From positions 1 to 34,690 of IMG/VR virus record IMGVR_UViG_3300027659_000108: a stretch of 34,690 bases of DNA; one strand, written 5' to 3'. The position numbers were made by a program, and so were the translations under genes. A model generated the notes under the pieces. The model saw only the letters and a program-made list of their open reading frames with translations, was not told the origin of the DNA and searched no databases. This document shows, one piece after another, positions 1 to 33,086 of this stretch. This DNA is from a virus. The stretch's first letter is position 1; every line of letters begins with the position of its first letter.

Positions 1-1881
1 ATTTAATGTGGCCCCAGTACGAGGTTTAAATGTTTTAGTCTTACGTTTTTCGGTATCTTTGGACATTTTGGGCCTACCCTGACCTGGAACTCCTGGTAAA
101 GATTCTGGCGAATCTTTTACCAACTTCGTTGTAGGAACAAGAGAAGAAGGATTGGCTAGCGGTTTAGGTGCAGTCTCCATTTTTAGATCGTATAATGTTT
201 TTTCTCCCTTTTTCTTAGTTTCTAAATCTAATCCAACTTGACTTGGGGTAGCAACGCCAGTTTGTAATACAATCTTTTTAAGACTATTCTCAAATTCTGG
301 ATCATTCCAAGGACCAGCTTTGGGAACTCTTCTTTGTGATGTTCTTTCTCTATTTTCACGATTAATTCTATTCTTTTCCATATCTGGATCAAAGCCAAAG
401 ATTGTTTGGAGTAATTCGTCACTAATAAGATTACGGTCAGCTAATTGAATTAGTAATGCTTTTTCTGTATCTTCATTACTTAAATCCATTCTATCAAATT
501 CTATTTTTGCTGGGTATTTGAAACCCATAGCTTTTTGTACTATCTCTATCTCTCTGGTCCAAAATTCTGTAAGAACTCTACGACCATATTCTAATCTTTG
601 TGTTAAAGTTTTGAGACTAATAAAATTATTGGTTGTTCCTGATGCTCCGTATGTTCCTGTTAATGTTGGAGGAATTCCTAATCCAGCATAAATACTATTT
701 AAGTGTGGAGTATATTTAGCTTCTCCAAGAAATTGATGAACAGCAGTTTTGCTTTCTATAAGCTCAATATCTGGTCCCCAAATTAAATCCATTGTACCAC
801 CACCAACATTGTTTTGTAAAATATTTGATAGTTTTGATGCTGCTGCTTTTGTAGGAGCAATTTTATGTTCTAAACTACCTAATTTAAAAATACGAATATT
901 AGAAATGGCTCCGTCAAGAGCGGCTAAGTCTGCTAATTTAAGCTTCTCGATAATATTTATATCATCCATAATAGCATATATCATTGGATAGGCCCAAATT
1001 TGCCAATCGTCTTTTTTATAATGAAATACTAAAGTTTTATCAGCATCTAGAACATAAGAAGTTTTATTTTTGGCTGCTTGTAAAATATCTTCTGGTAGTT
1101 GTGAGATAATATTTCTTTCTAGATCATTCTTTGGACTATTAATAGTTTTGCGTAATTGTCCTGGCAATTGAATTTCATAAATTCTTTTCCCAACGAATGA
1201 CGATAAACTATCACCAATTACGTCAACGTAATAAGGATCTATAAAAGTATATTTCCATGGTATTTCCCTTTTTTCAATAATAATATCATCCTCATACAAT
1301 GATATATCAGCTCTGCCTGACGCTTTATATAGATTATCAGAAGTTTTTTTAGAAATTTTTGCTGTTTGTCTATTGATAACTACATTTCCAACACGATAAA
1401 CATTATTTAAAAATCTTTCTGATCTTTCTTGTCCATGAACCTTTTGGAACCAATTACGATAGAATCTCTCCACTTTCTTGGTTCTGTGTACTAATCGTAT
1501 GCCCTGACTTGCAAAATCACCCATCAAATCAATAACATTTTTTACTAAACCAACTCTTTGATAAACAATATCAGCAGTACGAATAATATTTTTTATTTGA
1601 GTTGGAACAGATTCGCTTGGCCTAAAATAGTCATAGTCTGATCTAGTTAATCCTGGTCTACCAGATGTATTGTCTGTTAAATTAGAAAAATCTCTACTAT
1701 ATCTGGCGTAACCAGTAGTTCTATGAATGCCATCATATTCGTTTAAAGATGCTGAAGATTCATTTAAAGCGCTTTTTTTAGAATCTAAATCATCACCCCA
1801 TGTAACATAAGCTTCAACCTTATCGGCATTAGGATCTGCGTCAGGAATACTATTGTTCTTTCCGGGTTGTTTTTTGGGCAT
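1..1881 (-). CDS. Phage portal protein (3' end cut by window edge)
   Basis: Portal proteins form the dodecameric ring at the capsid vertex through which DNA is packaged. The frame is open from the ATG at 1881 to base 1, giving 627 residues, so the C-terminus lies outside the window. The length, the position just downstream of the terminase gene and the sequence character support the call: an acidic/Asn-rich N-terminus, a central region with 'FIDPYYVDVIGDS', and 'YAGLGIPPTLTGTYGASG' followed by a long helical stretch, as in portal proteins. A 55-nt AT-rich gap separates it from the terminase stop. No strong Shine-Dalgarno is visible. The Lys/Pro-rich tail near the edge may be a C-terminal extension. 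Family inferred from motifs and synteny, not from a search. Confidence 0.8.
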   Translation of the reverse strand, partial: MPKKQPGKNNSIPDADPNADKVEAYVTWGDDLDSKKSALNESSASLNEYDGIHRTTGYARYSRDFSNLTDNTSGRPGLTRSDYDYFRPSESVPTQIKNIIRTADIVYQRVGLVKNVIDLMGDFASQGIRLVHRTKKVERFYRNWFQKVHGQERSERFLNNVYRVGNVVINRQTAKISKKTSDNLYKASGRADISLYEDDIIIEKREIPWKYTFIDPYYVDVIGDSLSSFVGKRIYEIQLPGQLRKTINSPKNDLERNIISQLPEDILQAAKNKTSYVLDADKTLVFHYKKDDWQIWAYPMIYAIMDDINIIEKLKLADLAALDGAISNIRIFKLGSLEHKIAPTKAAASKLSNILQNNVGGGTMDLIWGPDIELIESKTAVHQFLGEAKYTPHLNSIYAGLGIPPTLTGTYGASGTTNNFISLKTLTQRLEYGRRVLTEFWTREIEIVQKAMGFKYPAKIEFDRMDLSNEDTEKALLIQLADRNLISDELLQTIFGFDPDMEKNRINRENRERTSQRRVPKAGPWNDPEFENSLKKIVLQTGVATPSQVGLDLETKKKGEKTLYDLKMETAPKPLANPSSLVPTTKLVKDSPESLPGVPGQGRPKMSKDTEKRKTKTFKPRTGATLN

Positions 1882-1936: not shown

Positions 1937-3964
1937 CTATTTTTTATAAATACCAAGGTATAAATCGCTATTAGCAGAATTTGTGAACCATGACGGTCCT
2001 CTGTATAAGGTTTTATCGGTGTCAGAATAATAATTCTCTTTGGTTGATCCGATAACATCATAAGAAACTGGAGCATCAGCTCTGCTTACGGATCGTGCTA
2101 TAGAATTAGCTATTACTAAAGCACTATATCGGTCTTTTCTTAATCTTCCTCTTTTGCCATTAGAAATCTTTACTTCTGGAGTGTCCCATCTTTCTCTAGC
2201 TCCGGAACTATTACTAGTTTGAGTCATAACAATAGTTGTTAATTCATTTTTAAGTTCTTCTATTTCTAGAATACATTCGCTTAAAGTATCATAAATTGGG
2301 TCTAAATCACTACCAATTATATCTTTAGATTCATTAGCCAGGGCTAATCCTAGTGTTAAATTATCAAATGATGGGAATAATAATACTTTATCTTCAAAAT
2401 CTTTTCTAAGACCATGATTAGCATGACTAGTCCACTCTGCTCTAGCAAATTGAATTAGATGTAAAATGTGTAATCCTGCTTTATTATCAGTATCTTTGCT
2501 TTTATTTAGGTCAATAATTGGCCAAATTGGCAATTCATCAGGATTAATTTTGCTAGTATCGTGTAAAGCTTCTTCTATAGCAACGCCTCCTCCCTGAGCA
2601 TCAATTCCTATATATTCACATGGAAATACTTTCATTAAATTTCTAATTTTTCTAGCACAAAAACCATAAAAATCATTTTCGTTTATTAATCCTGTTTGTT
2701 GTCGTTGTTTAAAATTTGATCTATTAGTGGTCCAACAGTAAACAATTCTACTATGATTAGGATGAATTTCTATAACTACTATACTAAAATTATCTTGTTC
2801 GCTAGCTGGGTCTATACCATAAATATATTTTTTATCGGCATCCCCTGCTATTTTAGCATCAAATACTATATTTTGATTATTAATTGTAATAGGATTTTTA
2901 ATATTAGCCACACAGCTTTCTATTAAACTTCTACGAAAAAATCCACTACTATCTTTTGTAAAACACGCTGCATATTCCATATTATATATGCCACTATGAA
3001 TAGTAGCTTTGGCTCTAGCAACTTGTCGATCATCCATAAAGCCTTTTGGTATAAGCTCGTAGGGCATTCTAACTATACTATAGTCCTTCCAATTAAAATT
3101 AGATGGAACTTCACCTTTAAATAATTCAGATAATTTTTTATCGTCCCCACGACTTTGAATAATAGATTTGTATCTTTCCCAGTAAGCAGCAAAATGTTTA
3201 AAAGAATAGTCTGCTGTTCCGGCTACGATAGCTTGATTACTGCGTCTATATTGAAGTTCTTCCATTTCTTCGGACCATATGCCCAGCTCTTTCATTAAGT
3301 CTTTTTTAGCTTCTGCCTTAACATTACCAATAGGATCGGCAGATACAGCAGCAAATCCCGATACCACAGTTTCATATACTTCTGGAGATATTGACGCAAA
3401 TTCGTCAGCAATAATGATATGTGCTCTTAAGCCTCTAATTTTACTTCCATCACCAAGAGGAATAGCAATAGCCCAACTATCTCCATATCTCATGGTACAT
3501 CTATCAACATCTCGTCTGGGTCCATCGTCGTTACTACTAAAAATACTCCGTATAATAGATGATTTTCTCCATATGGTTTCCATGTATTCAAAAATAACTT
3601 TACTTTGTCTAAATGCTGCACCAACTATAACAATTTTTGTTCCTGGTATAAAAATACATTTTAATGTACAATATAATGCTAGTATAAAAGATTTACCAAA
3701 ACCTCGGCTAGCAATAAACATTGGAAATGGCCTGCTCCAAAATTCTTCTAAAATAGCTAGTTGAATAGGATGCAATTCAATATCCATTAATAGTCTAGCA
3801 GTAATACTAAAATTAGCAGGATTTCTCATTATTCTTAATAAATGTTGATCGGGATTCTCAATATCTTTTTGAGCCCTATGAATCATTAAATTATTAGGTA
3901 GTGATAAAGTATTAATATTACCTAGTTTTAGCCAGGCATTATCTAATTCATGATGATCTGCCAT
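1937..3964 (-). CDS. terL: Terminase large subunit (TerL)
   Basis: DNA-packaging motor that translocates phage DNA into the prohead using ATP and cuts it with a RNase H-like nuclease domain. 675 aa, a normal TerL length. The N-terminal ATPase has a Walker A-type motif 'ASRGFGKS' (about residues 85-92) and Walker B 'HIIIADEF' (about 182-189, D187/E188). The nuclease domain shows 'YIYGIDPASEQDN' (D385), 'YIGIDAQGGG' (D455) and a late acidic motif 'RKDRYSALVIA' (D611). These are the three acidic positions expected for TerL nucleases. The start overlaps the end of the ERCC4 nuclease gene by 17 nt, indicating one operon with it. The portal gene follows. Confidence 0.95.
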   Translation of the reverse strand: MADHHELDNAWLKLGNINTLSLPNNLMIHRAQKDIENPDQHLLRIMRNPANFSITARLLMDIELHPIQLAILEEFWSRPFPMFIASRGFGKSFILALYCTLKCIFIPGTKIVIVGAAFRQSKVIFEYMETIWRKSSIIRSIFSSNDDGPRRDVDRCTMRYGDSWAIAIPLGDGSKIRGLRAHIIIADEFASISPEVYETVVSGFAAVSADPIGNVKAEAKKDLMKELGIWSEEMEELQYRRSNQAIVAGTADYSFKHFAAYWERYKSIIQSRGDDKKLSELFKGEVPSNFNWKDYSIVRMPYELIPKGFMDDRQVARAKATIHSGIYNMEYAACFTKDSSGFFRRSLIESCVANIKNPITINNQNIVFDAKIAGDADKKYIYGIDPASEQDNFSIVVIEIHPNHSRIVYCWTTNRSNFKQRQQTGLINENDFYGFCARKIRNLMKVFPCEYIGIDAQGGGVAIEEALHDTSKINPDELPIWPIIDLNKSKDTDNKAGLHILHLIQFARAEWTSHANHGLRKDFEDKVLLFPSFDNLTLGLALANESKDIIGSDLDPIYDTLSECILEIEELKNELTTIVMTQTSNSSGARERWDTPEVKISNGKRGRLRKDRYSALVIANSIARSVSRADAPVSYDVIGSTKENYYSDTDKTLYRGPSWFTNSANSDLYLGIYKK

Positions 3965-4424
3965 AAGTATGCATCTCGTTTACTCTTTTAATAATAGAAA
4001 AAGCCATCTCTTCTGCTGCTATAGGATTGTCGCAAAAAATTACATGAATATTATATTTAGTTTGTAGTTCGGTTAAATATTTAAGAATATATGGTGGCCT
4101 TATTTTAATTTTGCTCCATACTCTTGATGGAACATTAGATCCTCGTGGATAGTTTAATACATCTTGTAAACTAAATTCTAGTAATATAAATTTATAAAGA
4201 TAGTTGGACATTCTATCTAACTCATCTTTAAAACGTGGTTCTGATATATTATTGGCTATTTCACTAACAGAATTTTTACGCTCAATACAAAGCATATTCT
4301 CAAGCCCCTCTATTGAATAATCTCCAGTATCAAGCTTTTTCTTAATAGTATTACAAGACGCAAAAGCCCATGGCTTTTGTTCTCTAGTATCAATAATAAT
4401 ATTAAAAGTATATTTACTATCCAT
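3948..4424 (-). CDS. ERCC4-domain nuclease (XPF/MUS81-type)
   Basis: 158 aa, essentially a stand-alone ERCC4 nuclease domain. The catalytic signature is complete: 'IIIDTREQKPW' (D12, R14, E15), 'LDTGDYSI' (about 31-38) and 'CIERKN' (E48-R49-K50), matching the GDX(n)ERKX(3)D-type active site of structure-selective endonucleases that cut branched or flapped DNA. No HhH dimerisation domain is present. It overlaps both neighbours (TerL by 17 nt, the upstream gene by 8 nt), so it is translated with the packaging genes. A role in resolving branched concatemers before packaging is plausible. That role is inference; the domain call is firm. Confidence 0.88.
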   Translation of the reverse strand: MDSKYTFNIIIDTREQKPWAFASCNTIKKKLDTGDYSIEGLENMLCIERKNSVSEIANNISEPRFKDELDRMSNYLYKFILLEFSLQDVLNYPRGSNVPSRVWSKIKIRPPYILKYLTELQTKYNIHVIFCDNPIAAEEMAFSIIKRVNEMHTYGRSS

Positions 4425-5100: not shown

Positions 5101-5356
5101 TATTTAATAATAGTTTTAAAAAGAATAGCTCGTAGTTTTCTTCATTATTTTTAATTAAATCATGATGATATTTGCAAAGTGTTATTCCGTTGGATGGATG
5201 AAATCTTAAGCCGGGATAATCCGACCATTTTTTTATATGGTGAGCATTTAATTTTTTATGAGGTTGAGAACAGTGGGGCCACTTACATTTATGGTCATCT
5301 CTTTTAAAAATAGATTTGATCCATTCTTTATATTGTTTATCATAGAATCTACGCAT
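5084..5356 (-). CDS. HNH endonuclease, small
   Basis: 90 aa. The HNH beta-beta-alpha-metal fold is visible: a zinc pair 'CKWPHC' (C24, C29), the catalytic 'LNAHHIKKW' (H39/H40), 'HPSNGITLCKYHH' with N56, C61 and H64/H65. HNH proteins next to terminase genes take part in cos cleavage and packaging in some phages (the HK97 gp74 type), so a packaging role is possible; a selfish homing nuclease is the alternative. Its start overlaps the upstream TerS-candidate stop by 8 nt and its end overlaps the next gene by 17 nt. This tight coupling favours an integrated operon gene over a recent insertion. Confidence 0.88.
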   Translation of the reverse strand: MRRFYDKQYKEWIKSIFKRDDHKCKWPHCSQPHKKLNAHHIKKWSDYPGLRFHPSNGITLCKYHHDLIKNNEENYELFFLKLLLNNDINK

Positions 5357-6164
5357 CGTCGTTAGCCACTGATTCTGCGTTAAGAATTGGCCTATCTAGC
5401 TGACCATCTTGATATGAGTGTAAGTCATATAAGCTACCTTTAAATTTGTCGGTGGCCATCTTTAGAATTTCTAGTTGACGACCCTCTTTTTCTCTAATCT
5501 CTTCGTCTTCAAGCATTCGTATTAAACCAGCCCAGCTACTTTTACCATCCTCGATTCTTTTAATTCGCTGTTCTCTTGTGGCCTTAAGATCTTTACTAAT
5601 TTTTTGTTGTTCACTTAATAATTTAGTATATTCGTTAGTATAACTGGCTATGCTATTTCGGGCAAAACTTAGTTGAGTTTCAAGATTGGCCAGCTTTGGA
5701 ATATCTCGGTCACTTTCTTCTTTTGAGTATTCTTGATCAACAGCTTTTTGAAGTTTTTCAGTTTCCGCTATGTGTCTTTTTCTTTCTTTCATGCTTCGAT
5801 TAATAAGAATATCAATAGTTATAAATTGTTTAATTTGTAGTTCTTCTGCGGGCAAAACGTCTTCTCTGAATTGTTTAATAAGATTAACCCATGTATTTTC
5901 AAAATATTCTAATTCGCCCGTTTCAGTATCAAATTGTCTGGTAATTTCTATCCAAAAAGACTTGGATCTTAATTTTAATTTAAGAATTTCATTTTCTTGT
6001 TGAATTCCTTTGGGTTGTAATAAAGCTTTACTCTCAATATATTTTTTAATTGGTTCTGTTGTGCGATTTAATGCAGAAGCAATGTCCTCTATACTGGTGG
6101 TTTCTATATAGTCGGAAATATATTTTTCTTCTTCTAAACTAAGCTGTCCTCGTTTTTTGCTCAT
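5349..6164 (-). CDS. Putative terminase small subunit (HTH + coiled coil)
   Basis: 271 aa. Residues 8-46 form a likely helix-turn-helix ('TTSIEDIASALNRTTEPIKK'). A long charged helical region (about 140-215, rich in E, K, R, Q) should be a coiled coil. An N-terminal HTH plus coiled-coil oligomerisation region, encoded a few genes upstream of TerL on the same strand, is the usual pattern for small terminase subunits that recognise packaging sites. The protein is longer than most TerS, and other genes separate it from TerL, so the assignment rests on architecture and position. It starts 4 nt downstream of the sigma-factor stop and overlaps the HNH gene by 8 nt. Confidence 0.55.
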   Translation of the reverse strand: MSKKRGQLSLEEEKYISDYIETTSIEDIASALNRTTEPIKKYIESKALLQPKGIQQENEILKLKLRSKSFWIEITRQFDTETGELEYFENTWVNLIKQFREDVLPAEELQIKQFITIDILINRSMKERKRHIAETEKLQKAVDQEYSKEESDRDIPKLANLETQLSFARNSIASYTNEYTKLLSEQQKISKDLKATREQRIKRIEDGKSSWAGLIRMLEDEEIREKEGRQLEILKMATDKFKGSLYDLHSYQDGQLDRPILNAESVANDDA

Positions 6165-6168
6165 AGGA

Positions 6169-6792
6169 TTAATCTTTTTTAAAGTTTGGTAAAATATTAT
6201 TTTTTATATAGTTTTGTAGTTTAGTTTTATCGTTCTTGGATATTTTAGCTCCATATTTTAGTTTTAAATAAATTTCCCTATATTTAGTGGGCAAATTATC
6301 TTCTAAATAGTCAATAATATCCTGATTGGCTATGCTATTAATAAAATTAGATGGTTGAACTGGATCATTATTCTCCATGTATCCTGGCTTCATAATATTC
6401 TTTTTACTATTATTGCGCTTAAACCATATTTCATAAGCATGACAATTAGACTTATCTTTAAACTGGGCGCAATCGGATTCTTCGTTATTTGGTCTATATA
6501 ATGGACAAGTTAAACAAGGTTTATCGGGCCTTTGATAGTGATCTCTTTTATAATTAAATAAACGATTTCTAACATGTGTCCATAAGAAATTTTCTAGTGG
6601 CCTAGAATGATCATATTTTTCTAGTCCTTCAATAGCAAAAATTGCTGCTTGTTGTTTCATATCATCAACATCATGATATCCAAATTTAAATTTATAAACT
6701 AATTTTTTAGTTATAATATCTAATGTTCTAAGAAAATCTTCTTCTGAAACAGTATTATTTTTGATTATTGGATTGTTCGGTTTTTTGCTCAT
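6169..6792 (-). CDS. Phage RNA polymerase sigma factor (sigma70 region 2-like) with Cys4 insert
   Basis: 207 aa. Residues about 35-85 match a sigma70 region 2: 'YHDVDDMKQQAAIFAIEG' then 'PLENFLWTHVRNRLFNYKRD', the helices that bind the beta' clamp and the -10 element. Immediately after is a four-cysteine cluster (C93, C96, C108, C117) that may bind Zn or an Fe-S centre. The C-terminal part ('LPTKYREIYLKLKYGAKIS') is short and lacks an obvious region 4 HTH, as in T4 gp55-type late sigma factors. It lies second in the packaging operon, so it probably directs late transcription. That role is inferred from domain content; promoter specificity cannot be read here. Confidence 0.8.
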   Translation of the reverse strand: MSKKPNNPIIKNNTVSEEDFLRTLDIITKKLVYKFKFGYHDVDDMKQQAAIFAIEGLEKYDHSRPLENFLWTHVRNRLFNYKRDHYQRPDKPCLTCPLYRPNNEESDCAQFKDKSNCHAYEIWFKRNNSKKNIMKPGYMENNDPVQPSNFINSIANQDIIDYLEDNLPTKYREIYLKLKYGAKISKNDKTKLQNYIKNNILPNFKKD

Positions 6793-6919
6793 TAAGTAAT
6801 TCTGCTATAGTTTTATGTTCCTGAATATCTTCTTGTTCTAAGTCCTTAGTAACATCTACTTTAGAAGATGCTATAACTTTTATTGTGGAACCAACCACAT
6901 TATATACAATTTTGTTCAT
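6755..6919 (-). CDS. Small hypothetical protein heading the packaging operon
   Basis: 54 aa, beginning 'MNKIVYNVVGSTIKVIASSK' and ending in a Gln/Glu/Asn-rich tail. It is the first frame after the divergent control region and overlaps the sigma-factor start by 38 nt. No domain is recognised. The N-terminus looks like a short beta hairpin. The ribosome-binding site is weak, so the start is not certain. It is accepted because of operon position and reading-frame length in an otherwise filled region. Confidence 0.55.
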   Translation of the reverse strand: MNKIVYNVVGSTIKVIASSKVDVTKDLEQEDIQEHKTIAELLNEQKTEQSNNQK

Positions 6920-6953
6920 AAAAAACTCGTTTGTTGCATAGATAAAAAGCTGG

Positions 6954-6975
6954 CCTATAATATAATTATTATAGG
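6954..6975. promoter_or_regulatory. Perfect 22-bp AT palindrome in the divergent promoter region
   Basis: Arms CCTATAATA and TATTATAGG (9 bp each, 4-nt centre) are perfectly complementary. The palindrome lies between the leftward packaging operon (start 6919) and the rightward AT-hook gene (start 7010). Each arm contains TATAAT, so it can supply a -10 element in both directions and also act as an operator. Confidence 0.5.
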
Positions 6976-7009
6976 ATAAGTTACACCAATGTAAAGTGAG
7001 ACACTAATA

Positions 7010-7210
7010 ATGAATAAAACATACAAAAAATGGACAGAAACTGATCTAGAATTTATTCGTGCCAACTATAATACTATGACAGATAAAGATATGTCGGAGA
7101 CACTATCCAAGATTTCTGGTCAAAGTATTAGTATTAGTATGGTACGAAGACAACGACGCAAGCTGGTACTAGGACGCAAAAGAGGCAGACCAAGAACTTC
7201 AGCAGTATAG
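7010..7210 (+). CDS. Small DNA-binding protein with HTH and AT-hook
   Basis: 66 aa. Residues about 5-50 ('KWTETDLEFIRANYNTMTDK' onward) resemble a SANT/Myb-like or HTH module of the type that starts with W...E...L. The C-terminus 'GRKRGRPRTS' is a classical AT-hook (core RGRP) for the minor groove of AT-rich DNA. The gene is divergent from the packaging operon and faces the 6954 palindrome, so it is a candidate regulator of this control region (inference). A hairpin terminator follows at 7250. Confidence 0.8.
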   Translation: MNKTYKKWTETDLEFIRANYNTMTDKDMSETLSKISGQSISISMVRRQRRKLVLGRKRGRPRTSAV

Positions 7211-7249
7211 TTAATGCAGAAGGGGTGGTCTAAGTTAATACACCAAAAT

Positions 7250-7284
7250 AAGCCATATTAATAATATAATGTGGCTTTATTCTT
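7250..7284 (+). terminator. Putative terminator between convergent genes
   Basis: Arms AAGCCA (7250-7255) and TGGCTT (7272-7277) are followed by a T-rich run (TTTATTCTTTAT). It lies between the rightward AT-hook gene and the leftward gene ending at 7277, so it could stop both transcripts. Confidence 0.5.
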
Positions 7285-7879
7285 TATCTAGATCTTCATC
7301 ATTATCAGGAACTGGTTGATTGTTTAATAATTTGGTGGACTTTTTAATAGCTCTATTAATTAATATTTTGCCAATCATATCAACAAATGGTAAACCTCTT
7401 CTTTGAGCTTCTTCTCTTAACCAGCCAACAATAGTATCAACATTCTGAGAACACCACTCATTACCTTTAGCATTCATGGTTAATGCGTGTCTACGACACG
7501 AACAATTATCGCTCATATGAATGCCTATGGATTTAATCATGCTGGCTAATACTGTTCCTGGAGCATAAGGATCTTCTTCCATAGTTCGTGGAAATAATGA
7601 TCTTAAAGTTTTAGCAGGATCGTCGCCTAAGATTTGTAATAATCTATTTTCTAAAACATTTTGATTCCAAAAACCATTAAGCTGATCATATGATGATGAT
7701 GTAAATAATTGAATAGGTAGTGGAAAATATTGTATAGCTACGCTAATAATTTGTTTAAGTGGGTCTATAGTATATAAAAGATTCAACTCATCGGTAATTA
7801 TTGGTGGGGGTTGATTAACTTTGCCATTATTGTCAGAAAATGGTGGGGGAACAATAGTTATAGATTTAGCTAGTTTCAT
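7277..7879 (-). CDS. Conserved phage protein of unknown function with C-x-C/C motif
   Basis: 200 aa. The N-terminal half is Pro-rich with no recognised fold. Residues about 107-180 form a compact module: 'GTVLASMIKSIGI' then a Cys cluster (C126, C128, C143) around 'NCSCRRH' and 'MNAKGNEWC', then amphipathic helices ('GWLREEAQRRGLPF'). I have seen this pattern in phage and metagenomic proteins of unknown role; the Cys/His residues suggest metal binding. It is transcribed alone, leftward, from a promoter near 7931-7958, with AAGGA at a suitable distance before the ATG. No function is assigned. Confidence 0.75.
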   Translation of the reverse strand: MKLAKSITIVPPPFSDNNGKVNQPPPIITDELNLLYTIDPLKQIISVAIQYFPLPIQLFTSSSYDQLNGFWNQNVLENRLLQILGDDPAKTLRSLFPRTMEEDPYAPGTVLASMIKSIGIHMSDNCSCRRHALTMNAKGNEWCSQNVDTIVGWLREEAQRRGLPFVDMIGKILINRAIKKSTKLLNNQPVPDNDEDLDKE

Positions 7880-7930
7880 AAAATATCCTTGAAATTTCCT
7901 ATGAGATGACAGCTGAAGTGTTAGTATTTT

Positions 7931-7958
7931 ATAATAATCGGCTAATTATAGGTGTCAA
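7931..7958 (-). promoter_or_regulatory. Sigma70-type promoter for the 7879 gene
   Basis: On the minus strand TTGACA (7953-7958) is followed after 16 nt by TATTAT. The spacer contains GCCGATTA, close to the GCCGATAATA block seen in the rightward early promoters. Confidence 0.5.
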
Positions 7959-8110
7959 GAAAAATAAAGAAGTGAGGTATTTGTGGTAAAGATTCAGCGT
8001 ATCAGATATTTGCTTATGTATCATGTTATCTATGTTCTAACAATAGGATTGTAGGATTTTAAGCAGAAGGTGTGGTACAAATTAATTAAAGGGTAATTCT
8101 AAAATCATTC

Positions 8111-8138
8111 TTGATTTTGTGATTTTCTGTCGTAAGAT
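8111..8138 (+). promoter_or_regulatory. Possible promoter for the subtilase gene
   Basis: TTGATT, 16-nt spacer, TAAGAT, 45 nt before the ATG at 8184. It lacks the CGATAATA spacer block. The rest of the 7959-8183 stretch is AT-rich and shows no other structure. Confidence 0.35.
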
Positions 8139-8183
8139 ACACAACATATTGTGGCTGGAAGCCTAAAATGAAAGGACTCAATC

Positions 8184-9398
8184 ATGCAAAAACGCTCTTT
8201 GCTTTTTGAAAGTTTAGAATCTAGAAGAGTATTATCTAATACTGTTATTGCTATAATTGATAGTGGTACAGATACGTCTCATCCTTACATTAGTTCTCAC
8301 CTATGGACCAATCCTGGAGAGATTGCTGGTGATAATATTGATAATGATCATAATGGATATGTTGATGATATTCATGGATGGAATTTTGTAGAAAATAATA
8401 ATAATGTACAGGATGGATATGGTCATGGTACGGCGGTAACGGGTCTGGTTGTGGCTAATAATGTTTCTGATGTAATGATTTTAAGATTTCAAAATAATCA
8501 GGGATTAGGATTTACCGGCGAAGCTATTAAGGGTATAGAATATGCTACCATGATGAAAAGAGACTTTAATATTAATGTAGTAGCTATTAATGCTAGCTGG
8601 GGTGGCGGATTAGGATATTCTAGTTTATTATATGCTGCTATTAATAATGCTGGAACTAATGATATAGCTTTTGTGGTTGCTGCTGGCAATAGTGGTGCGG
8701 ATAATGATGCTGTTCCACGATATCCTGGATCTTATGATTGTTCTAATATTATTAATGTGGCGGCGGTGACTGATCAAGGATATTTGACATCATATTCTAA
8801 TTATGGAAAAAATAGTGTAGATTTGGGGGCCTATGCTAATGGAGTAAATACTACTTTTCCTAATAATAGTTATGGATCTTTTGCTGGTACCAGTGCTGCT
8901 GCTCCTAGAGTATCTAGCTCTGTAGGTTATTTAAAATCTCAGAATCCTTCATGGAGTATTGATCAGGTTAAAAGCTATATATTTAGTACTGTAGAAAAAA
9001 ATAATAGTTTAGCAGAGAAGATTGTTAGTGGGGGAGTATTAGATAAGAGTCTAGTTTTTAATGTTCCAGAACCCATCAAGACTCCAGCTTCTATAAGTCT
9101 ACCAGTAATTAGTACTCCAATTGGTAACGTGGAAGTTTTATCATTAAGAAGAATTAAGGGGTGGGCTTTTAATAGTGATAGTGGATCCAAGCCAGTTGTA
9201 GTAAAAATTTTTATAAACGATGTGATGGTAAAAATTTCAGTAGCTCGAAGTTATAGAGGAGATTTAAGAAGTAGTTTAGGGTCTAGCTACCATGGATTTA
9301 ATATGAAGCTAAATCCCAAGTGGTTTGTTGTTGGGGAAAACAGAGTAAGTGTGAAAGTGGGAGATAATGTGATATGGAGTGGAAAGATTAATAAATAG
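8184..9398 (+). CDS. Subtilisin-like serine protease (S8) with planctomycete-type N-terminus
   Basis: 404 aa. The complete S8 triad is visible: Asp26 in 'AIIDSGTDTSHP', His81 in 'GYGHGTAVTGL', Ser237 in 'FAGTSAAAPR', with oxyanion Asn169 in 'AAGNSGADN'. There is no propeptide. The first 20 residues contain 'LFESLESRRVLS', the FE-LE-R-LL/LS N-terminal motif widespread in planctomycete exported proteins. A C-terminal beta-rich domain (about 310-404, 'IKGWAFNSDSG') probably binds a surface or substrate. ATG preceded by AAAGGA. A virion-linked, lysis or host-surface protease is possible; capture from a planctomycete host is the likely origin. Confidence 0.9.
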   Translation: MQKRSLLFESLESRRVLSNTVIAIIDSGTDTSHPYISSHLWTNPGEIAGDNIDNDHNGYVDDIHGWNFVENNNNVQDGYGHGTAVTGLVVANNVSDVMILRFQNNQGLGFTGEAIKGIEYATMMKRDFNINVVAINASWGGGLGYSSLLYAAINNAGTNDIAFVVAAGNSGADNDAVPRYPGSYDCSNIINVAAVTDQGYLTSYSNYGKNSVDLGAYANGVNTTFPNNSYGSFAGTSAAAPRVSSSVGYLKSQNPSWSIDQVKSYIFSTVEKNNSLAEKIVSGGVLDKSLVFNVPEPIKTPASISLPVISTPIGNVEVLSLRRIKGWAFNSDSGSKPVVVKIFINDVMVKISVARSYRGDLRSSLGSSYHGFNMKLNPKWFVVGENRVSVKVGDNVIWSGKINK

Positions 9399-9558
9399 TG
9401 GCTAATAAACTGGCCAATTATTTATTGAGGTCGGCTATTGTTTTTAGACCACCCGGCGATTTTCAAAAATTTCTCAAGGTAAGGCGAAAAAACGAAAAAA
9501 CCCCCCTTCTTCTAGTCAGTGTCTGGTCCTAGTCTGGTACCAATGAGCGACCACTTTT
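9399..9558. other. Gene-free junction between subtilase and early region
   Basis: 160 nt without a credible frame. It marks a shift from the AT-rich left-hand coding style to the early region. It holds homopolymer-like runs (A and C tracts near 9490-9510) and the sequence CTAGTCAGTGTC, but no convincing hairpin terminator. The regulatory cassette starts at 9559. Confidence 0.5.
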
Positions 9559-9643
9559 CGTAAGTAGTCTGGTCGTAAGGACTTAGTATTGGTTTATGCC
9601 CAAAAATTTGATGTAAGTGCTTATGCTGTAAGGACTTATGACG
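9559..9643 (+). repeat. Regulatory dyad cassette, copy 1
   Basis: Two imperfect long dyads built from TAAG/CTTA half-sites (CGTAAGTAGTC...CGTAAGGACTTAG and TGTAAGTGCTTA...TAAGGACTTA), separated by about 22 nt. This is the first of 18 related cassettes that precede early promoters. A conserved block with TGCCA and TTGGCATGAAATTATATT follows at about 9662-9702. Confidence 0.75.
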
Positions 9644-9723
9644 AGTTTTGACGCAAAGACTGTGCCACAAAAATTTTTCTCGTTTGGCATGAAATTATAT
9701 TCGAAAAATTGCAAAGATTTCTC

Positions 9724-9751
9724 TTGAAAGCGTCGATAAATACTGTATAAT
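9724..9751 (+). promoter_or_regulatory. Early promoter (gene 9790)
   Basis: TTGAAA, 16-nt spacer containing TCGATAAA, TATAAT. The transcript would have a purine-only leader (GAAAGAAAGAGAGAAAG-type) before the ATG. Confidence 0.8.
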
Positions 9752-9789
9752 GAAAACACAAGAGAAAAAGAAAGAAAGAGAGAAAGAAA

Positions 9790-10026
9790 ATGAAGAATAC
9801 GAAAATCATCATGAATCGCAAAGAACTTGACGAAATCCTCTATGGTGAGAACAGTGTTTCTCCCGATACTTTTGTGGATTCGGAGTATGCGATTGGTGGA
9901 GAATTGCTTGAAGAAGCAAGAAACAACAACAACTCTATCGAAGACTTCTTCCCTATGGGAGATGAGGGAGAGTATATCGAAGTGGATAATGATGGATATG
10001 TAATCGCAGATTTCCTGTATTACTAG
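9790..10026 (+). CDS. Small acidic early protein, paralog of the 11126 gene
   Basis: 78 aa, strongly acidic, not recognised as a known family. It shares layout and motifs with the 75-aa protein at 11126: an N-terminal 'MKN' start, a central 'GELLEEA' / 'GDLLAKV' block and a C-terminal 'GEYIEVDNDGYV' / 'GGWIEVDEMGYV' block. Both follow an identical purine-rich leader. The pair therefore arose by duplication together with the promoter cassette. No function can be read. Confidence 0.75.
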   Translation: MKNTKIIMNRKELDEILYGENSVSPDTFVDSEYAIGGELLEEARNNNNSIEDFFPMGDEGEYIEVDNDGYVIADFLYY

Positions 10027-10036
10027 GGGAAAAAAC

Positions 10037-10050
10037 GTACAGTAGTGTAC
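10037..10050. promoter_or_regulatory. GTACA/TGTAC palindrome after the stop codon
   Basis: GTACA-GTAG-TGTAC followed by a run of A and CTCGACGTAA. Related palindromes occur at about 10861-10875, 11687-11702 and 13230-13242, each just upstream of a dyad cassette. It could be a short terminator stem or a protein site. Confidence 0.45.
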
Positions 10051-10058
10051 AAAAAACT

Positions 10059-10144
10059 CGACGTAAACCCTTACCGCGTAAGGAGTTACAGCGAATTTTT
10101 GCCGAAAAATTTGACGTAAGTACTTGCAGCGTAACGACTTACGC
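10059..10144 (+). repeat. Regulatory dyad cassette, copy 2
   Basis: First dyad CGTAAACCCTTA...TAAGGAGTTACAG, central AT palindrome AATTTTT-GCCG-AAAAATT, second dyad GACGTAAGTACTTG...AACGACTTACG. A clear example of the three-part design. Confidence 0.85.
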
Positions 10145-10251
10145 TCAGTATTTTGTCTTTTATTATCTATCTTACCACACAGCAAATATCGTGCCATAAA
10201 AATTTTATCCATTTGGCATGAAATTATATTTGAAATTTTTCAAGATTTTGC

Positions 10252-10279
10252 TTGAAAGCGTCGAATATATCTATATAAT
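10252..10279 (+). promoter_or_regulatory. Early promoter (gene 10311)
   Basis: TTGAAA, 16-nt spacer with GCGTCGAATA, TATAAT. Confidence 0.8.
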
Positions 10280-10310
10280 CAAAGCATCAAGAGAAAAGGG
10301 AGAGATGAAA

Positions 10311-10490
10311 ATGAAAATCGGTGAATTTGTTTTTGCGGAATATGATAACGGTGAAATCGTGAACGGCGAAGTGATCAACGTTCGCATGTTCGGTGATCGG
10401 ATGCTGTTGACGGTAAAGGCCGATCAAGGCTATCGTTCGATCTATACCGATAAGTGTGTGACGCTCGAAGTTATGGAAGCCTCTAAGTAA
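10311..10490 (+). CDS. Small beta-rich protein, paralog of the 11937 gene
   Basis: 59 aa. The start is set at the second of two close ATGs because GGGAGA is then correctly spaced and the product matches the 59-aa paralog at 11937 end to end (about three-quarters identical: both have 'EYDNGE', 'GEVINVRMFGDRMLLTVKA', 'GYRSIYTDKCV'). The alternating hydrophobic pattern suggests a small SH3/KOW-like barrel, which would fit nucleic-acid or protein binding. Function unknown. First gene of a three-gene unit. Confidence 0.8.
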   Translation: MKIGEFVFAEYDNGEIVNGEVINVRMFGDRMLLTVKADQGYRSIYTDKCVTLEVMEASK

Positions 10491-10503
10491 AAAGGAAATA
10501 GTA

Positions 10504-10677
10504 ATGGAAAAGATGATCGACGAGAATGGAGAGGAATGGATTGTGGGTTATGGAGAGGATGACGCTATGGATTTCGACGATTATTCGTGGGATCCGATCA
10601 TGGGTGATTCCGAAGATGATGTTGAAACGGATGATGTGTGGCTCGATGATTTCCAAGGCGAGGAGGATTGGGCATGA
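10504..10677 (+). CDS. Small highly acidic protein, paralog of the C-terminal half of the 13543 gene
   Basis: 57 aa, very rich in Asp/Glu with several Trp. The C-terminal half 'SWDPIMGDSEDDVETDD' and 'WLDDFQGEED' matches the end of the 89-aa protein at 13543 ('GWDPIMGDAEDHIETDD', 'WLDDFCGEED'). The larger paralog carries an extra N-terminal Cys-rich domain that is missing here. Charge distribution would suit a DNA mimic, which is speculative. Its TGA overlaps the next ATG (ATGA), indicating translational coupling. Confidence 0.72.
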   Translation: MEKMIDENGEEWIVGYGEDDAMDFDDYSWDPIMGDSEDDVETDDVWLDDFQGEEDWA

Positions 10678-10856
10678 CTCAGGAAATTCGTGATCTTGCA
10701 AATTCGCTTGGGCTTGTTGTGGCAAGCGTTTGGGATGGATATTCTCGCAAATGGATCGTAAGCGAACGGGATGGATACTGTACGCTGTTCACCACGAACG
10801 ACTACGATACGCTTGTTCAGGGATTGAGGGATGGGGGAAAGTTTCGACCACTGTAA
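10674..10856 (+). CDS. Small hypothetical early protein
   Basis: 60 aa, starting at the ATG that overlaps the previous stop. Alpha/beta pattern: N-terminal helix 'IRDLANSLGLVVASVWDG' then a strand pair 'KWIVSERDGYCTLFTTNDYD' and a C-terminal helix. Not assigned to a known family. Last gene before cassette 3. Confidence 0.65.
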   Translation: MTQEIRDLANSLGLVVASVWDGYSRKWIVSERDGYCTLFTTNDYDTLVQGLRDGGKFRPL

Positions 10857-10881
10857 ATCCGTATACTACTGTACAAAAACT

Positions 10882-10970
10882 CGACGCAAACCCTTACTGC
10901 CGAAGGAGTTACGACGAATTTTTGCCCGAAAATTTGACGTAAGTACTTACGCTACAACGACTTACAACGA
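10882..10970 (+). repeat. Regulatory dyad cassette, copy 3
   Basis: CGCAAACCCTTA...AAGGAGTTACG, centre AATTTTTGCCCGAAAATT, then GACGTAAGTACTTAC...AACGACTTAC. Preceded by a degenerate TATAC/TGTAC palindrome (10861-10875). Confidence 0.85.
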
Positions 10971-11004
10971 GTTTTTCTCTAATCTTATCTATGTTACCAA
11001 AAGT

Positions 11005-11021
11005 TTGGCACGATATTTGCT
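11005..11021 (+). promoter_or_regulatory. Sigma54-like -24/-12 element
   Basis: TTGGCACGATATTTGCT matches the sigma54 consensus TGGCAC-N5-TTGC with the required 10 nt between GG and GC. An identical element occurs at 12776 and a near-identical one at 13374. Host sigma54 use is inference. Confidence 0.45.
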
Positions 11022-11029
11022 GTAGCTAA

Positions 11030-11047
11030 CCTTACGATATTGTAAGG
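11030..11047. promoter_or_regulatory. CCTTAC dyad upstream of -35
   Basis: Perfect arms CCTTAC / GTAAGG around GATATT. Exact copies at 12801 and 13814 and a degenerate one at 14258 all sit just upstream of an early promoter. Its half-sites match those of the long cassettes. Confidence 0.6.
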
Positions 11048-11057
11048 AAGATTTTAG

Positions 11058-11085
11058 TTGATATCTAAAGATAGGATGGTATAAT
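11058..11085 (+). promoter_or_regulatory. Early promoter (gene 11126)
   Basis: TTGATA, 16-nt spacer, TATAAT, followed by a purine-only leader to the ATG at 11126. Confidence 0.8.
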
Positions 11086-11125
11086 GTCGATATAAGAAGA
11101 AGAAAGAAAGAAAGAGAGAAAGAAA

Positions 11126-11353
11126 ATGAAAAACATGATCGTCCTTAACACTGTGGCTGAACTGACTGAGTTTCTTAACAATACTAGCCTTGATACTCTG
11201 GTGAATCGGGTTGCTTTTGCTGGTGATCTGCTGGCAAAAGTGAATGAGCATAATCAGATTAACATAGATGAGGAGATCGGATTCTGTGATGATGGTGGAT
11301 GGATCGAAGTTGACGAAATGGGCTATGTTGTGGATGATTTCGCAATCTGCTAA
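11126..11353 (+). CDS. Small acidic early protein, paralog of the 9790 gene
   Basis: 75 aa. It shares the 'GDLLAKV' and 'GGWIEVDEMGYVVDDF' blocks with the 9790 product. N-terminal helix 'TVAELTEFLNNTSLDTLV'. Expressed from its own promoter with the long GAAA-type leader that contains the Shine-Dalgarno-like AGAGAAAG. Unknown function; the duplicated gene, leader and promoter unit is the notable point. Confidence 0.75.
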   Translation: MKNMIVLNTVAELTEFLNNTSLDTLVNRVAFAGDLLAKVNEHNQINIDEEIGFCDDGGWIEVDEMGYVVDDFAIC

Positions 11354-11384
11354 AAATACGAACATAAGAAAGAAGGAAAAGAAA

Positions 11385-11681
11385 ATGAATCATTGTGAAG
11401 CTGTTAAGATGGTGAAGGGAAAGGGTAATAAGAATACCCGTAAGGTGGGCAACAATACCTATGCGGAAATTCTTCCTGATGGTAGCGTGGGCATTATGCT
11501 ACATAGTACCTATGTTGTGAAGATTCATCCCGACAATAGTGCTACCCTTAATACTGGGGGGTGGTATACCAGCACCACTAAGGATCGAATCAACAAGTAT
11601 TCGCCCGTAAGAGTATATCAGCGTAGGGGCGAATGGTATCTGAACAACGGTACACCATATGAGGATGGTATGGTAGTGTGA
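11385..11681 (+). CDS. Conserved phage domain protein (N-T-R-K-V-x-N-N-T-Y type)
   Basis: 98 aa. The start ATG is preceded by AAGGAAAAGAAA. The core 'NTRKVGNNTYAEILPDG' followed by 'GIMLHSTYVVKIHPDNS' and 'LNTGGWYTSTTKDRINKY' is a beta-rich domain I recognise as recurring in unrelated phages, always of unknown role. The strict Gly/Asn/Thr turns suggest a small beta sandwich. It lies 31 nt after the 11126 gene in the same unit. No catalytic residues are apparent. Confidence 0.78.
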   Translation: MNHCEAVKMVKGKGNKNTRKVGNNTYAEILPDGSVGIMLHSTYVVKIHPDNSATLNTGGWYTSTTKDRINKYSPVRVYQRRGEWYLNNGTPYEDGMVV

Positions 11682-11686
11682 ACATC

Positions 11687-11702
11687 TGTACACTACTGTA
11701 CA
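11687..11702. promoter_or_regulatory. TGTACA palindrome
   Basis: TGTACA-CTAC-TGTACA, perfect on both arms, followed by AAAAACGCGACGTAA, the entry to cassette 4. The clearest of four related palindromes. Confidence 0.5.
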
Positions 11703-11708
11703 AAAACG

Positions 11709-11796
11709 CGACGTAAAGCCTTACCCCATAAGGAGTTACGTCAAATTTTTGCCCGAAAATTTCTCCTAAGTACTTATGCTGCAACGACTTACGACA
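11709..11796 (+). repeat. Regulatory dyad cassette, copy 4
   Basis: First dyad CGACGTAAAGCCTTA / TAAGGAGTTACGTC can form a long hairpin followed by AAATTTTTG, so it could also terminate the upstream transcript. Second dyad CTAAGTACTTA...AACGACTTACG. Confidence 0.85.
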
Positions 11797-11876
11797 AGTT
11801 TTCAGAGCAAACGCTGTGCCACAAAAAATTATTTTATTTGGCATGAAATTATATTCGAAATTTCTCAAGATTTCTC

Positions 11877-11904
11877 TTGAAAGGGCCGATATACTCTGTA
11901 TAAT
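11877..11904 (+). promoter_or_regulatory. Early promoter (gene 11937)
   Basis: TTGAAA, 16-nt spacer with GGGCCGATATA, TATAAT. Confidence 0.8.
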
Positions 11905-11936
11905 AGAGGTATCAAGAGAAGAGAAAGGGATAAGAA

Positions 11937-12116
11937 ATGAAAATCGGTGACTTTGTTAACGCTGAATACGACAATGGCGAAGTGGTTGTTGGTGAGGTTA
12001 TCAACGTGAGGATGTTTGGGGATCGGATGCTGCTGACGGTTAAGGCGGAACAAGGATACCGTTCCATCTATACCGATAAGTGTGTTAAGCTTGAAGTGGC
12101 CGAAGCCGTTAACTGA
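11937..12116 (+). CDS. Small beta-rich protein, paralog of the 10311 gene
   Basis: 59 aa, the same length as its paralog at 10311 and very similar throughout ('MKIGDFVNAEYDNGEVVVGE' at the start). The upstream promoter and leader are also alike, so the whole expression unit was duplicated. AAAGGGA lies 7 nt before the ATG. Possible small SH3/KOW-like fold; function unknown. Confidence 0.8.
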   Translation: MKIGDFVNAEYDNGEVVVGEVINVRMFGDRMLLTVKAEQGYRSIYTDKCVKLEVAEAVN

Positions 12117-12131
12117 AAAGGAAAACAAATA

Positions 12132-12323
12132 ATGAATAGCCTCGACTCTATCTTTTCTGCTATGCGAACGGGTAAGTATGGGTGTGTTATCGACACCAAG
12201 GGAAATGCCCATGTTGGTATTATCAATTGTGTGATGCGTGAGGATGGCAGCGGAAAGAATTGGATTGTGACGATTACTAATAAGACAGTTGGTCATGAGA
12301 ATGTTTTTTTTCACGCTAAGTGA
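12132..12323 (+). CDS. Small hypothetical early protein
   Basis: 63 aa. AAGGA precedes the ATG. Beta-rich pattern 'KYGCVIDTKGNAHVGIINCV' then 'NWIVTITNKTV'. The G-x-V-x-x-x-G-x-x-x-G-I layout resembles small SH3-type barrels. Not recognised as a family. It lies between the 11937 paralog and a small membrane protein in the same unit. Confidence 0.65.
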   Translation: MNSLDSIFSAMRTGKYGCVIDTKGNAHVGIINCVMREDGSGKNWIVTITNKTVGHENVFFHAK

Positions 12324-12335
12324 AAGGTATAGAAA

Positions 12336-12485
12336 ATGAAAAACTGGATTTGCTACAATTTGTTTGGCGAACATCCCGACGATGTTGATGCTTTCGGAAT
12401 GATTCTTGGTATTAGTATTCTAAGCTTTTTGGTTTTTTGGGCTTCTTATCTTTTTGTTTATATTCCCTTCTTTTACTTTGGATGA
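12336..12485 (+). CDS. Small membrane protein, one transmembrane segment
   Basis: 49 aa. An acidic N-terminal stretch is followed by about 25 hydrophobic residues ('GMILGISILSFLVFWASYLF') and an aromatic tail. Probably inner-membrane. Such micro-membrane proteins recur in this region (14702, 14864, 14973, 32143). The role is unknown; superinfection exclusion or host-membrane effects are possibilities only. Confidence 0.65.
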   Translation: MKNWICYNLFGEHPDDVDAFGMILGISILSFLVFWASYLFVYIPFFYFG

Positions 12486-12488
12486 AAA

Positions 12489-12662
12489 ATGAATATCTCT
12501 CAACTAAGCAAATGTACAGTACAAACTGCTTTAAGGATTGAACAAATTCGTTTGCAATATGCTTTGAGTGAATCGGATAAGGAAACTATTAAGAAAAGCA
12601 TTAAGGAATTGGCACAGGATTTGCTGGTACGTTATAAAAAAGAGATTGACGCAAACCCTTGA
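12489..12662 (+). CDS. Small helical hypothetical protein
   Basis: 57 aa, mainly helical and charged ('LRIEQIRLQYALSESDKETI', 'KELAQDLLVRYKKE'). It starts 3 nt after the preceding stop. The last codons (IDANP-stop) are written by the first half-dyad of cassette 5, so the regulatory repeat has become part of the coding end. Confidence 0.6.
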   Translation: MNISQLSKCTVQTALRIEQIRLQYALSESDKETIKKSIKELAQDLLVRYKKEIDANP

Positions 12663-12735
12663 GGCGTAAGGAGTTACGTCAAATTTTCGCCGCAAAATTT
12701 TCCCTAAGTGCTTATATACCAACAACTTACGACAA
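12648..12735 (+). repeat. Regulatory dyad cassette, copy 5
   Basis: GACGCAAACCCTTG...TAAGGAGTTACGTC, centre AAATTTTCGCCGCAAAATTT, then CTAAGTGCTTA...AACAACTTACG. It overlaps the 3' end of the 12489 gene. Confidence 0.85.
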
Positions 12736-12775
12736 GTTCTGACGCATATCATATGCCAAAGCAAAATATTCTTTT

Positions 12776-12792
12776 TTGGCACGATATTTGCT
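12776..12792 (+). promoter_or_regulatory. Sigma54-like -24/-12 element
   Basis: TTGGCACGATATTTGCT, identical to 11005-11021. Confidence 0.45.
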
Positions 12793-32452: not shown

Positions 32453-32668
32453 ATGATTAAGTATGTTCTAATGTTAACTCTAGCTCTTTCAGGTTCTGCT
32501 GTTAACGCCGGCGAATGTGTAACTGGTAAATGTAATCTTCGTAGTCGTAGCGTTGTTGTAGTACGCGAGATTATTTCAGTACCAGTAACTGTTACTCATA
32601 AAACTGTTGAGACTGCTCGTACCTTTGGTCGCAAAACAGTTTCAAGAGTTCGTAATATTGTTCGTTAA
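32453..32668 (+). CDS. Small secreted protein, planctomycete-like
   Basis: 71 aa. Clear signal peptide ('YVLMLTLALSGSAVNAGE', cleavage near AxA). The mature part has two Cys ('ECVTGKCNLRSRSVVVVREI') and a basic Val/Arg-rich rest. The 'GxCxxRSRxVxVVRE' start recalls short exported planctomycete proteins. ACGGAGAAATTT before the ATG. A hairpin terminator follows at 32690. Confidence 0.7.
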   Translation: MIKYVLMLTLALSGSAVNAGECVTGKCNLRSRSVVVVREIISVPVTVTHKTVETARTFGRKTVSRVRNIVR

Positions 32669-32735: not shown

Positions 32736-33086
32736 ATGATAAAGTCTATGTTTTATTCTTGTTGTTTTATTTTTGCTTTTATGAATTTTGCTCAAGCTGA
32801 TGGGACTATATATTATAGTAATAATAATCATATAGTAAATAAGTCACACTCATATACTAATAGTTTTGGTGGTGATCAAGAAAGATGCCAAGCAGAAGCT
32901 AATTATATGGCAGCAAATAATATTACTGGTCATGTTTGGGGAGTTATAGGACGATTTGAAGGAGTGGGATATGGTTCTAGTCCAAATTGTAGAACATGTA
33001 CTCCTAGCAGTAATATGACTCCAACAGGAGATGCTAGTGCTATAGGTCGTAACGGAATGTGGTATCGTGTTAGATCGTGGAGATAA
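32736..33086 (+). CDS. Secreted Cys-containing protein, planctomycete-like
   Basis: 116 aa from the ATG after AAGGAGGATTT, a near-perfect ribosome-binding site. Signal peptide with 'CCFIFAFMNFAQA'. Mature region: 'QERCQAEANYMAANNITGHV', 'GRFEGVGYGSSPNCRTCTP' and a 'WYRVRSWR' end. I recognise this layout from small secreted proteins common in planctomycetes, some with a CAP/SCP-like flavour. Role unknown. Confidence 0.72.
   Translation: MIKSMFYSCCFIFAFMNFAQADGTIYYSNNNHIVNKSHSYTNSFGGDQERCQAEANYMAANNITGHVWGVIGRFEGVGYGSSPNCRTCTPSSNMTPTGDASAIGRNGMWYRVRSWR

Follow-up and report, generated by a model that had tools for sequence, protein, structure and literature searches.

A subtilase of large environmental phages with a planctomycete-type N-terminal motif, a candidate signal for export in the host

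Whether a virus can make use of a protein export signal that belongs to a single bacterial phylum, and whether such a signal can point to its host, are the questions raised by a protease gene in IMG/VR record IMGVR_UViG_3300027659_000108. This is a virus record of 34,690 bases, analysed over its full length and referred to here as the window; it is probably a fragment, because contigs carrying related terminases reach 199,884 bases and those carrying related subtilases 243,821 bases. A sequence-only reading of this DNA had described an intact, phage-encoded S8 protease with the planctomycete-type motif FESLESRRVLS at its N-terminus, and had taken it, together with two secreted proteins encoded at 32453 and 32736, as pointing to a planctomycete host.

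To the left of the protease the minus strand carries portal, terminase and ERCC4 nuclease genes, which supports its description as phage-encoded, along with HNH and sigma-like genes, while many small ORFs and 11 tRNA genes lie to its right (Table 1). The protease gene is on the strand opposite to the packaging genes and shares its strand with the small-gene and tRNA region. Its divergent neighbour has a relative, recognised by reading, at 5211-5795 of locus L004, where it occupies a different place within the cluster. AAGGA precedes the ATG in 20 of 25 subtilase relatives. The hairpin that follows the stop codon is terminator-like by consensus only, one being found against 0.9 expected in shuffles.

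Table 1. Features of the window that bear on the protease gene and its surroundings
Feature	Position	Strand	Basis or remark
Portal protein	1..1881	-	runs off window edge
Terminase large subunit	1937..3964	-	query for finding phage clade
ERCC4-type nuclease	3948..4424	-	cluster adjoining protease
Sigma-70 region 2-like protein	6169..6792	-	cluster adjoining protease
Protein without known function	7277..7879	-	divergent neighbour of protease
Shine-Dalgarno AAAGGA	8171..8176	+	precedes protease ATG
S8 subtilase gene, 404 aa	8184..9398	+	between packaging cluster (-) and small-gene region (+)
Putative export signal, Planc_extracel-like, residues 1-18, MQKRSLLFESLESRRVLS	8184..8237	+	Pfam, hydropathy, conservation
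S8 catalytic domain, residues 19-275	8238..9008	+	Pfam
Catalytic residues	Asp26 8259-8261; His81 8424-8426; Asn169 8688-8690; Ser237 8892-8894	+	alignment
C-terminal beta-sandwich domain, residues 313-404, fibronectin/Ig-like shape	9120..9395	+	predicted model
Hairpin TGGC...GCCA	9399..9416	+	directly after protease stop codon
71-aa Sec-like small protein	32453..32668	+	ORF, hydropathy
116-aa Sec-like protein	32736..33086	+	inner ATG of 32607-33086 frame

The base composition of the window switches at about position 7900, from 25-35% GC in the first 8 kb, which include the packaging genes, to 37-49% between 9 and 30 kb, with 31-35% in the last 4 kb. The tRNA genes carry 11 different anticodons (22850-27593 and 33096-33170). 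Pfam matches among the small genes comprise Kyanoviridae Gp96 (11268), gene product 88 (23158) and an Ogg-HhH DNA glycosylase (24820); matches below cut-off were obtained for a small gene at 27913 (phosphoribosyltransferase) and for a 124-aa ORF at 21687-22061 (ribosomal protein L7/L12 C-terminal domain, 5.4e-5). The INPHARED copy searched contained no close isolate of the phage clade.

The protease ORF starts with ATG and has no internal stop, and its product matches Pfam Peptidase_S8 (PF00082) at 1e-40 with 140.3 bits against a cut-off of 21.8, in agreement with its description as an intact S8 protease. The D26, H81, S237 triad and the oxyanion residue N169 are invariant in all nine aligned phage sequences. 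By its score and its catalytic residues the protein is a member of the S8 family, and proteolytic activity is predicted. The best phage family match is PHROG 3677 'protease'. Assignment to the type VII mycosins was rejected (78.4 bits against a cut-off of 278.75), as were the other NCBIfam S8 models, all of which scored below their own cut-offs; a PADLOC 'subtilase' match (2.6e-6) was taken as general S8 kinship.

Downstream of the catalytic domain, the predicted model of residues 310-404 is a beta-sandwich with a mean pLDDT of 94.6. This domain had no convincing Pfam family (15 members searched) and no Foldseek match in the PDB at E <= 0.001. BFVD yielded a single match, to a 327-aa protein from Siphoviridae sp. 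ctiV651 that is itself uncharacterized (E 1.3e-6, TMq 0.73, 28% identity); in VIA-align 5z1a scored best (Z 8.3, rmsd 2.7, 74 aligned), and many glycosidase and chitinase modules of the beta-sandwich type followed closely. On these models the domain is read only as a common extracellular-type sandwich, such as extracellular enzymes carry. The full-length model is of moderate quality (mean pLDDT 69.9, residues 1-18 below 50) and is therefore silent on the structure of the N-terminus.

The stretch FESLESRRVLS was found where the sequence-only reading had placed it, at residues 8-18. The wider ExLExRxLL pattern is present at the extreme N-terminus, within residues 2-17, with V replacing the first L of LL, and the Planc_extracel profile (PF07595) aligns to residues 2-17 over profile positions 1-16 of 20 (E 0.005). 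The tag thus resembles this family, yet it is not filed there, because its scores of 16.9 bits (Pfam) and 21.2 bits (six-frame search) lie below the curated cut-off of 25.5 bits. In random 40-mers of phage composition the motif occurred three times in 400,000. An excerpt of PMC8567305, quoting Studholme et al. 2004, gives the Planc_extracel consensus as RRLxxExLExRxLLA, and reports for Tuwongella immobilis 52 genes with the motif and 20 proteins detected, eight of them in the Tris/SDS fraction only. 

Judged by hydropathy alone, no Sec-type hydrophobic core was found in the first 20 residues of the window protein (12-residue mean at most 0.38), and the best means of its relatives range from -0.15 to 0.61 within their first 22 residues. 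The 12 residues that begin at position 16, just behind the tag, are rather hydrophobic (mean 1.52, and 2.31 for L003) and contain the strand that bears the catalytic Asp. The two relatives with a longer spacer that were measured lack such a stretch, with means no higher than 0.01 and 0.21 over 40 residues. N-terminal peptides of the LIPY/LLPY type, a feature of intracellular subtilisins such as the Bacillus ISPs, are absent from the window protein and its eight aligned relatives.

Since one occurrence of so short a motif is weak evidence, relatives of the protease were examined. A first viral scan returned two loci, of which one was identical and the other 62% alike, a profile built on these two types added two copies of a third viral relative, and a wider profile recovered 66 viral loci. 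The 43 leading loci (L240-L282, all matching at E 1e-55 or better, a boundary drawn after the rows had been seen) comprise 33 distinct sequences once duplicates are collapsed by identical 250-residue stretches. The tag is exact in 26 of the 33, is a near variant in six and has one conserved residue changed in the last (GPESIENKTLLS). The remaining 23 loci (19 distinct by the same rule) are mostly more distant S8 proteins, and the tag is absent from 18 of the 19 and present in one (L292, VERLESRHVLS).

Among 5,043 open frames of the phage loci (six-frame, at least 60 aa with ATG, with duplicates and loci chosen for their subtilase included) there were 25 distinct exact N-terminal motifs, all of them heading subtilases, two of which (L259, L279) were assigned by reading. 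Codons and architecture were compared in 25 of the 26 sequences with an exact tag, L255 being left out: the E and L residues do not vary, while their codons do (GAG in 14 and GAA in 11 for the first E; five codons for L). A tag that is constant in its residues with varied codons, heads subtilases exclusively and is rare by chance therefore looks selected as protein. The PF07595 profile itself was less sensitive at E <= 1, with no hmmscan match in the eight other aligned members and a six-frame match in four of eight tagged records. Of its six matches at this threshold across 28 large clade records, four are tagged S8 genes; those in L179 and L181 were rejected as tags, because they lie in a shared small protein that contains IIEQ(L/M)EKRFKTIM and span profile positions 2-14 and 3-14 only.

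Two architectures occur in this set. In 14 of the 25, including the window protein, about 0-8 residues separate the tag from the Asp strand, and in the other 11 the distance is 32-33 residues with the tag retained. Neither leaves room for a classical subtilase propeptide, which has about 80 residues. The long form is the likelier ancestor, the short form being a trimmed one, because a related planctomycete enzyme (L007) has about 60 residues between tag and Asp strand.

The specificity of the motif was assessed in the best 80 S8 relatives, out of at least 564, from a species-genome scan. In its loose form (LExRxLL at any place in the open frame ahead of the domain, as YGQLEARNLLA in L022) the motif precedes the S8 domain in seven of eight planctomycete loci, one of them titled Kuenenia, and in none of 60 others (Fisher 8e-9), a count over these best 80 that leaves out L006 and the 11 of the 79 loci L007-L085 with domains shorter than 200 aa. 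The strict pattern, scored in all 79 of these loci, is found in four of eight planctomycete loci and none of 71 others. Among these best 80, then, the loose form bears out the description of the motif as planctomycete-type. Each of the planctomycete genomes G006-G013 has 7 to 37 PF07595 matches at E <= 1, above cut-off in only three of the eight, and sub-cut-off matches occur in five of 14 control genomes. Not every planctomycete S8 protein bears the tag and, as sampled here, most do without it: the strict pattern is found in two of the best 30 S8 loci from 199 planctomycete-phylum genomes, one being the top-scoring L197, and many of the 30 have, by eye, a Sec-like start.

In a quick-search tree built from 108 catalytic domains, with SH-aLRT as its only support measure and with the 11 short-domain loci named above and phage loci L185 and L188 left out for domains below 200 aa, nine phage enzymes and the motif-bearing planctomycete MAG enzymes L007 and L008 fall into one set with a support of 99. 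Taken by themselves, the phage enzymes do not form a single clade, because L137 stands beside L007 and L008 (support 80). The contig of L007 also carries an EF-Tu gene, read by eye.

The best match of the genome scan (best 80 of at least 564), 99% identical, lies in a MAG named Gammaproteobacteria (L006, RGPR01000093.1). Its contig matches window positions 7954-13318 in three pieces at 94-98% identity, and this phage contig holds the sole PF07595 match at E <= 1 in the MAG (G005, about 2.1 Mb). A gammaproteobacterial host on the strength of L006 was rejected, the contig being phage DNA in a MAG with no other PF07595 match; it is probably a wrongly binned phage fragment, uninformative on the host.

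A host check by CRISPR spacers gave no support: bases 1-20000 were compared with 397 genomes of the class of G009, scoring up to two candidates per genome, a limit under which a weak match to a spacer may have gone unnoticed, and none of the matches at E <= 0.1, present in 67 of the 397, was spacer-like. The seven strongest fall in 8303-8407 within the protease gene, which we take to be its calcium-binding loop, and several others fall in the repeat element of the window. CRISPR-like repeats are absent from L233, and L236 has one diverged pair. Terminase relatives at 1e-20 were found in none of 294 planctomycete-phylum genomes, a result that shows little, as the search was run without a positive control. 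A planctomycete phage of 21.9 kb, Phage-ZRK32, is reported in an excerpt of PMC10945688.

The proteins encoded at 32453 and 32736 have hydrophobic, Sec-like starts (12-residue means of 1.97 and 2.02). As a host clue the former was not supported, with no match at E <= 0.01 in 148 planctomycete-class genomes, searched without a positive control. The latter gave weak matches at E <= 0.01 in three of 149 planctomycete-phylum genomes against none of 150 from Pseudomonadota, and an open, secreted-looking homologue was confirmed for one of the three (L086) only. Against a profile built from one planctomycete domain (L237) it scored 17.7 bits, with at most 12.1 in 1,000 shuffles, which from a single domain is suggestive only. 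Its relatives at 33 viral loci (53-100% identity) include several on contigs above 200 kb, and it had no match among INPHARED phages; by this distribution it is a marker of these phages rather than of the host. The proposal that three proteins point to a planctomycete host thus stands in its main part, through the motif and tree of the protease, and is not supported by the 32453 protein. Taken together, the conservation of the motif, its planctomycete specificity, the tree and the phage origin of the gammaproteobacterial match make a planctomycete the likeliest host; it has not been seen directly, and is well supported.

The window also contains a diverged family of palindromic repeats between 9526 and 29728, up to about 120 bases long (for example 10852-10975, 11679-11802, 16158-16276 and 29610-29728), with units like TAAGTNCTT-N6-AANGACTTA that are often 53 bases apart. 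A 41-base unit is present 22 times at 60% identity or more, a count by paired arms gives 15 places, and TAAGGACTTA occurs nine times against 0.1 expected. Several copies are followed by what read as TTGACA...TAGAAT-like promoters, and the family could be an operator series. The palindrome arms (TAAGTCCTTACTGCATAAGGACTTA and a variant) were also found in planctomycete loci L345 and L346 (G842) and L351 (G735), a biased sample, these contigs having been picked for their DNA match. The strict palindrome does not occur in a further 231 kb of G842 contigs, where a much looser form gives 72 matches against seven in a shuffle; the looser form occurs three times in 229 kb of G735, not at all in 357 kb from further genomes within the class, and six times in 343 kb of Pseudomonadota against 20 in a shuffle. 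The arms in planctomycete contigs are a possible second host clue. The strict palindrome is present in 19 of the 43 subtilase-phage loci (L240-L282) against one of 80 terminase-clade loci (L099-L178), a contrast that may reflect coverage of different genome parts alone.

Within the phage clade, eight of 28 large records carry the tagged enzyme, three an S8 gene starting with LLPY or LFPY (one record has both kinds) and one a weak match, while 17, possibly fragments, have no S8 gene at E <= 0.001. A tagged S8 gene lies within 8 kb upstream of the terminase at seven of 34 loci, and it may sit farther away, as does L280 on the contig of L156. By these counts the tagged protease is an accessory gene, and for that reason it is probably tuned to particular hosts. 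The second, tagless S8 gene is found elsewhere in the clade genomes, starting LLPY in G322 and G316 and LFPY in G310; L186 and L188 are of the former type, and L185, beside which a gene resembling an actin-like ParM/MreB protein was noted by eye, is of the latter. Both kinds occur together in G316, a phage record of 153.6 kb, the start of whose second S8 gene we take to be like that of intracellular subtilisins. If the LLPY start marks intracellular enzymes, this phage would make one protease for the inside of the cell and one for the outside.

The explanation that we consider probable from these sequence comparisons is that a planctomycete phage exports the protease by means of the lineage-specific tag of its host, most likely so that the envelope is weakened or remodelled. 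The host machinery would recognise the tag during infection and move the enzyme from the cytoplasm to the cell envelope, where it would cut surface or wall proteins. Weakening or remodelling of the envelope would then serve the release of progeny, or the removal of surface proteins during infection. Export might instead serve competition, by stripping receptors and so excluding superinfecting phages, or by attack on other phages or bacteria. This use draws on the same evidence for export, and the accessory distribution of the gene and its placement on the strand of the tRNA and small genes, opposite to packaging, are consistent with it; the evidence does not discriminate between it and a role in release, and we regard use in competition as unlikely. 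Were the host not a planctomycete, the gene would have been acquired from one and the tag would be a passenger, as a near-identical copy in a MAG called Gammaproteobacteria, the limited CRISPR search and the lack of terminase relatives in 294 genomes of the phylum might be taken to suggest. Yet that copy lies on phage DNA, in a MAG with no other PF07595 match at E <= 1, and residues conserved with varied codons in 25 sequences, unexpected for a passenger, argue that the tag is not one; of the explanations weighed here, we hold this one least probable.

Two further accounts dispense with export. The protease could act in the cytoplasm, in protein processing or counter-defence, with its 18-residue N-terminus as a short autoinhibitory peptide like that of intracellular subtilisins: a classical propeptide is missing, the motif of the 14 short forms ends near enough to the Asp strand to reach the active site, and subtilases of the LLPY or LFPY type are encoded elsewhere in the clade. 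However, the N-terminus follows the planctomycete pattern and not L(L/F)PY, the 11 long forms keep the tag despite their distance from the Asp strand, both types coexist in G316, and the C-terminal module is of the extracellular type, which together make a cytoplasmic enzyme quite improbable. Slightly less credible still is a virion-bound protease that aids entry through the host envelope; its beta-sandwich module could bind a surface and PHROG 3677 'protease' is its best phage family match, but an export tag should be needless on a virion part, the gene is opposite to the packaging strand, and 17 of 28 large records, maybe fragments, have no S8 gene. As to a head-maturation protease, the observations are the strand opposite to the packaging genes and that no prohead protease was recognised among the 10 genes downstream of the portal in a relative.

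Export by the host's tag remains the explanation that we prefer, and in its more general form we lean, if by a little, towards the view that widespread large environmental phages have captured a planctomycete non-Sec tag of about 18 residues together with a protease core, sending the enzyme to the envelope of the host. Subtilases in phages and the planctomycete motif are both already known, while a search of the open-licence PMC literature found no phage protein with that motif. To our knowledge, the machinery of the planctomycete phylum-specific export route is not yet known; if the proposal is true, this would be a virus that uses such a route. The short forms amount to a natural minimal construct, and because the 18 residues nearly abut the catalytic core and exist in 25 natural variants, the putative export signal can be tested by small fusions. 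The tag also suggests a host phylum for a clade of large environmental phages, and supplies a search rule for further planctomycete phages.

Compared with known systems, the phage enzyme has the same pattern at the same N-terminal place as planctomycete Planc_extracel proteins, followed as in these by an extracellular-type enzyme, and differs in being phage-encoded, in its sub-cut-off score and in the almost direct junction of tag and catalytic domain. The S8 protease L007, from planctomycete MAG contig JAJTED010000149.1, is 45% identical over residues 19-320 and groups with the phage enzymes; it carries the motif PEPLERRAVLS, its spacing having been taken by reading, and differs by its bacterial contig, longer linker, different C-terminal part and tentative start codon. 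The closest solved structure, both by sequence (9e-53) and by fold (E 1.1e-24), is the S8 protease deseasin MCP-01 (3vv3), presumably a secreted enzyme with a propeptide, which lacks the planctomycete tag. The second subtilases of the clade (L185, L186 and L188) share with the tagged one the S8 catalytic domain and a phage gene, and differ in their LFPY or LLPY start without tag, in their place in the genome, and in open frames of 311-325 aa, which leave no space for the C-terminal module. Bacillus phages (SP-15, Goe3, BSP14 and others) encode S8 subtilases too, but these belong to phages of other hosts and, among the 20 of 34 records listed, are 26-31% identical with at most 73% of the query covered.
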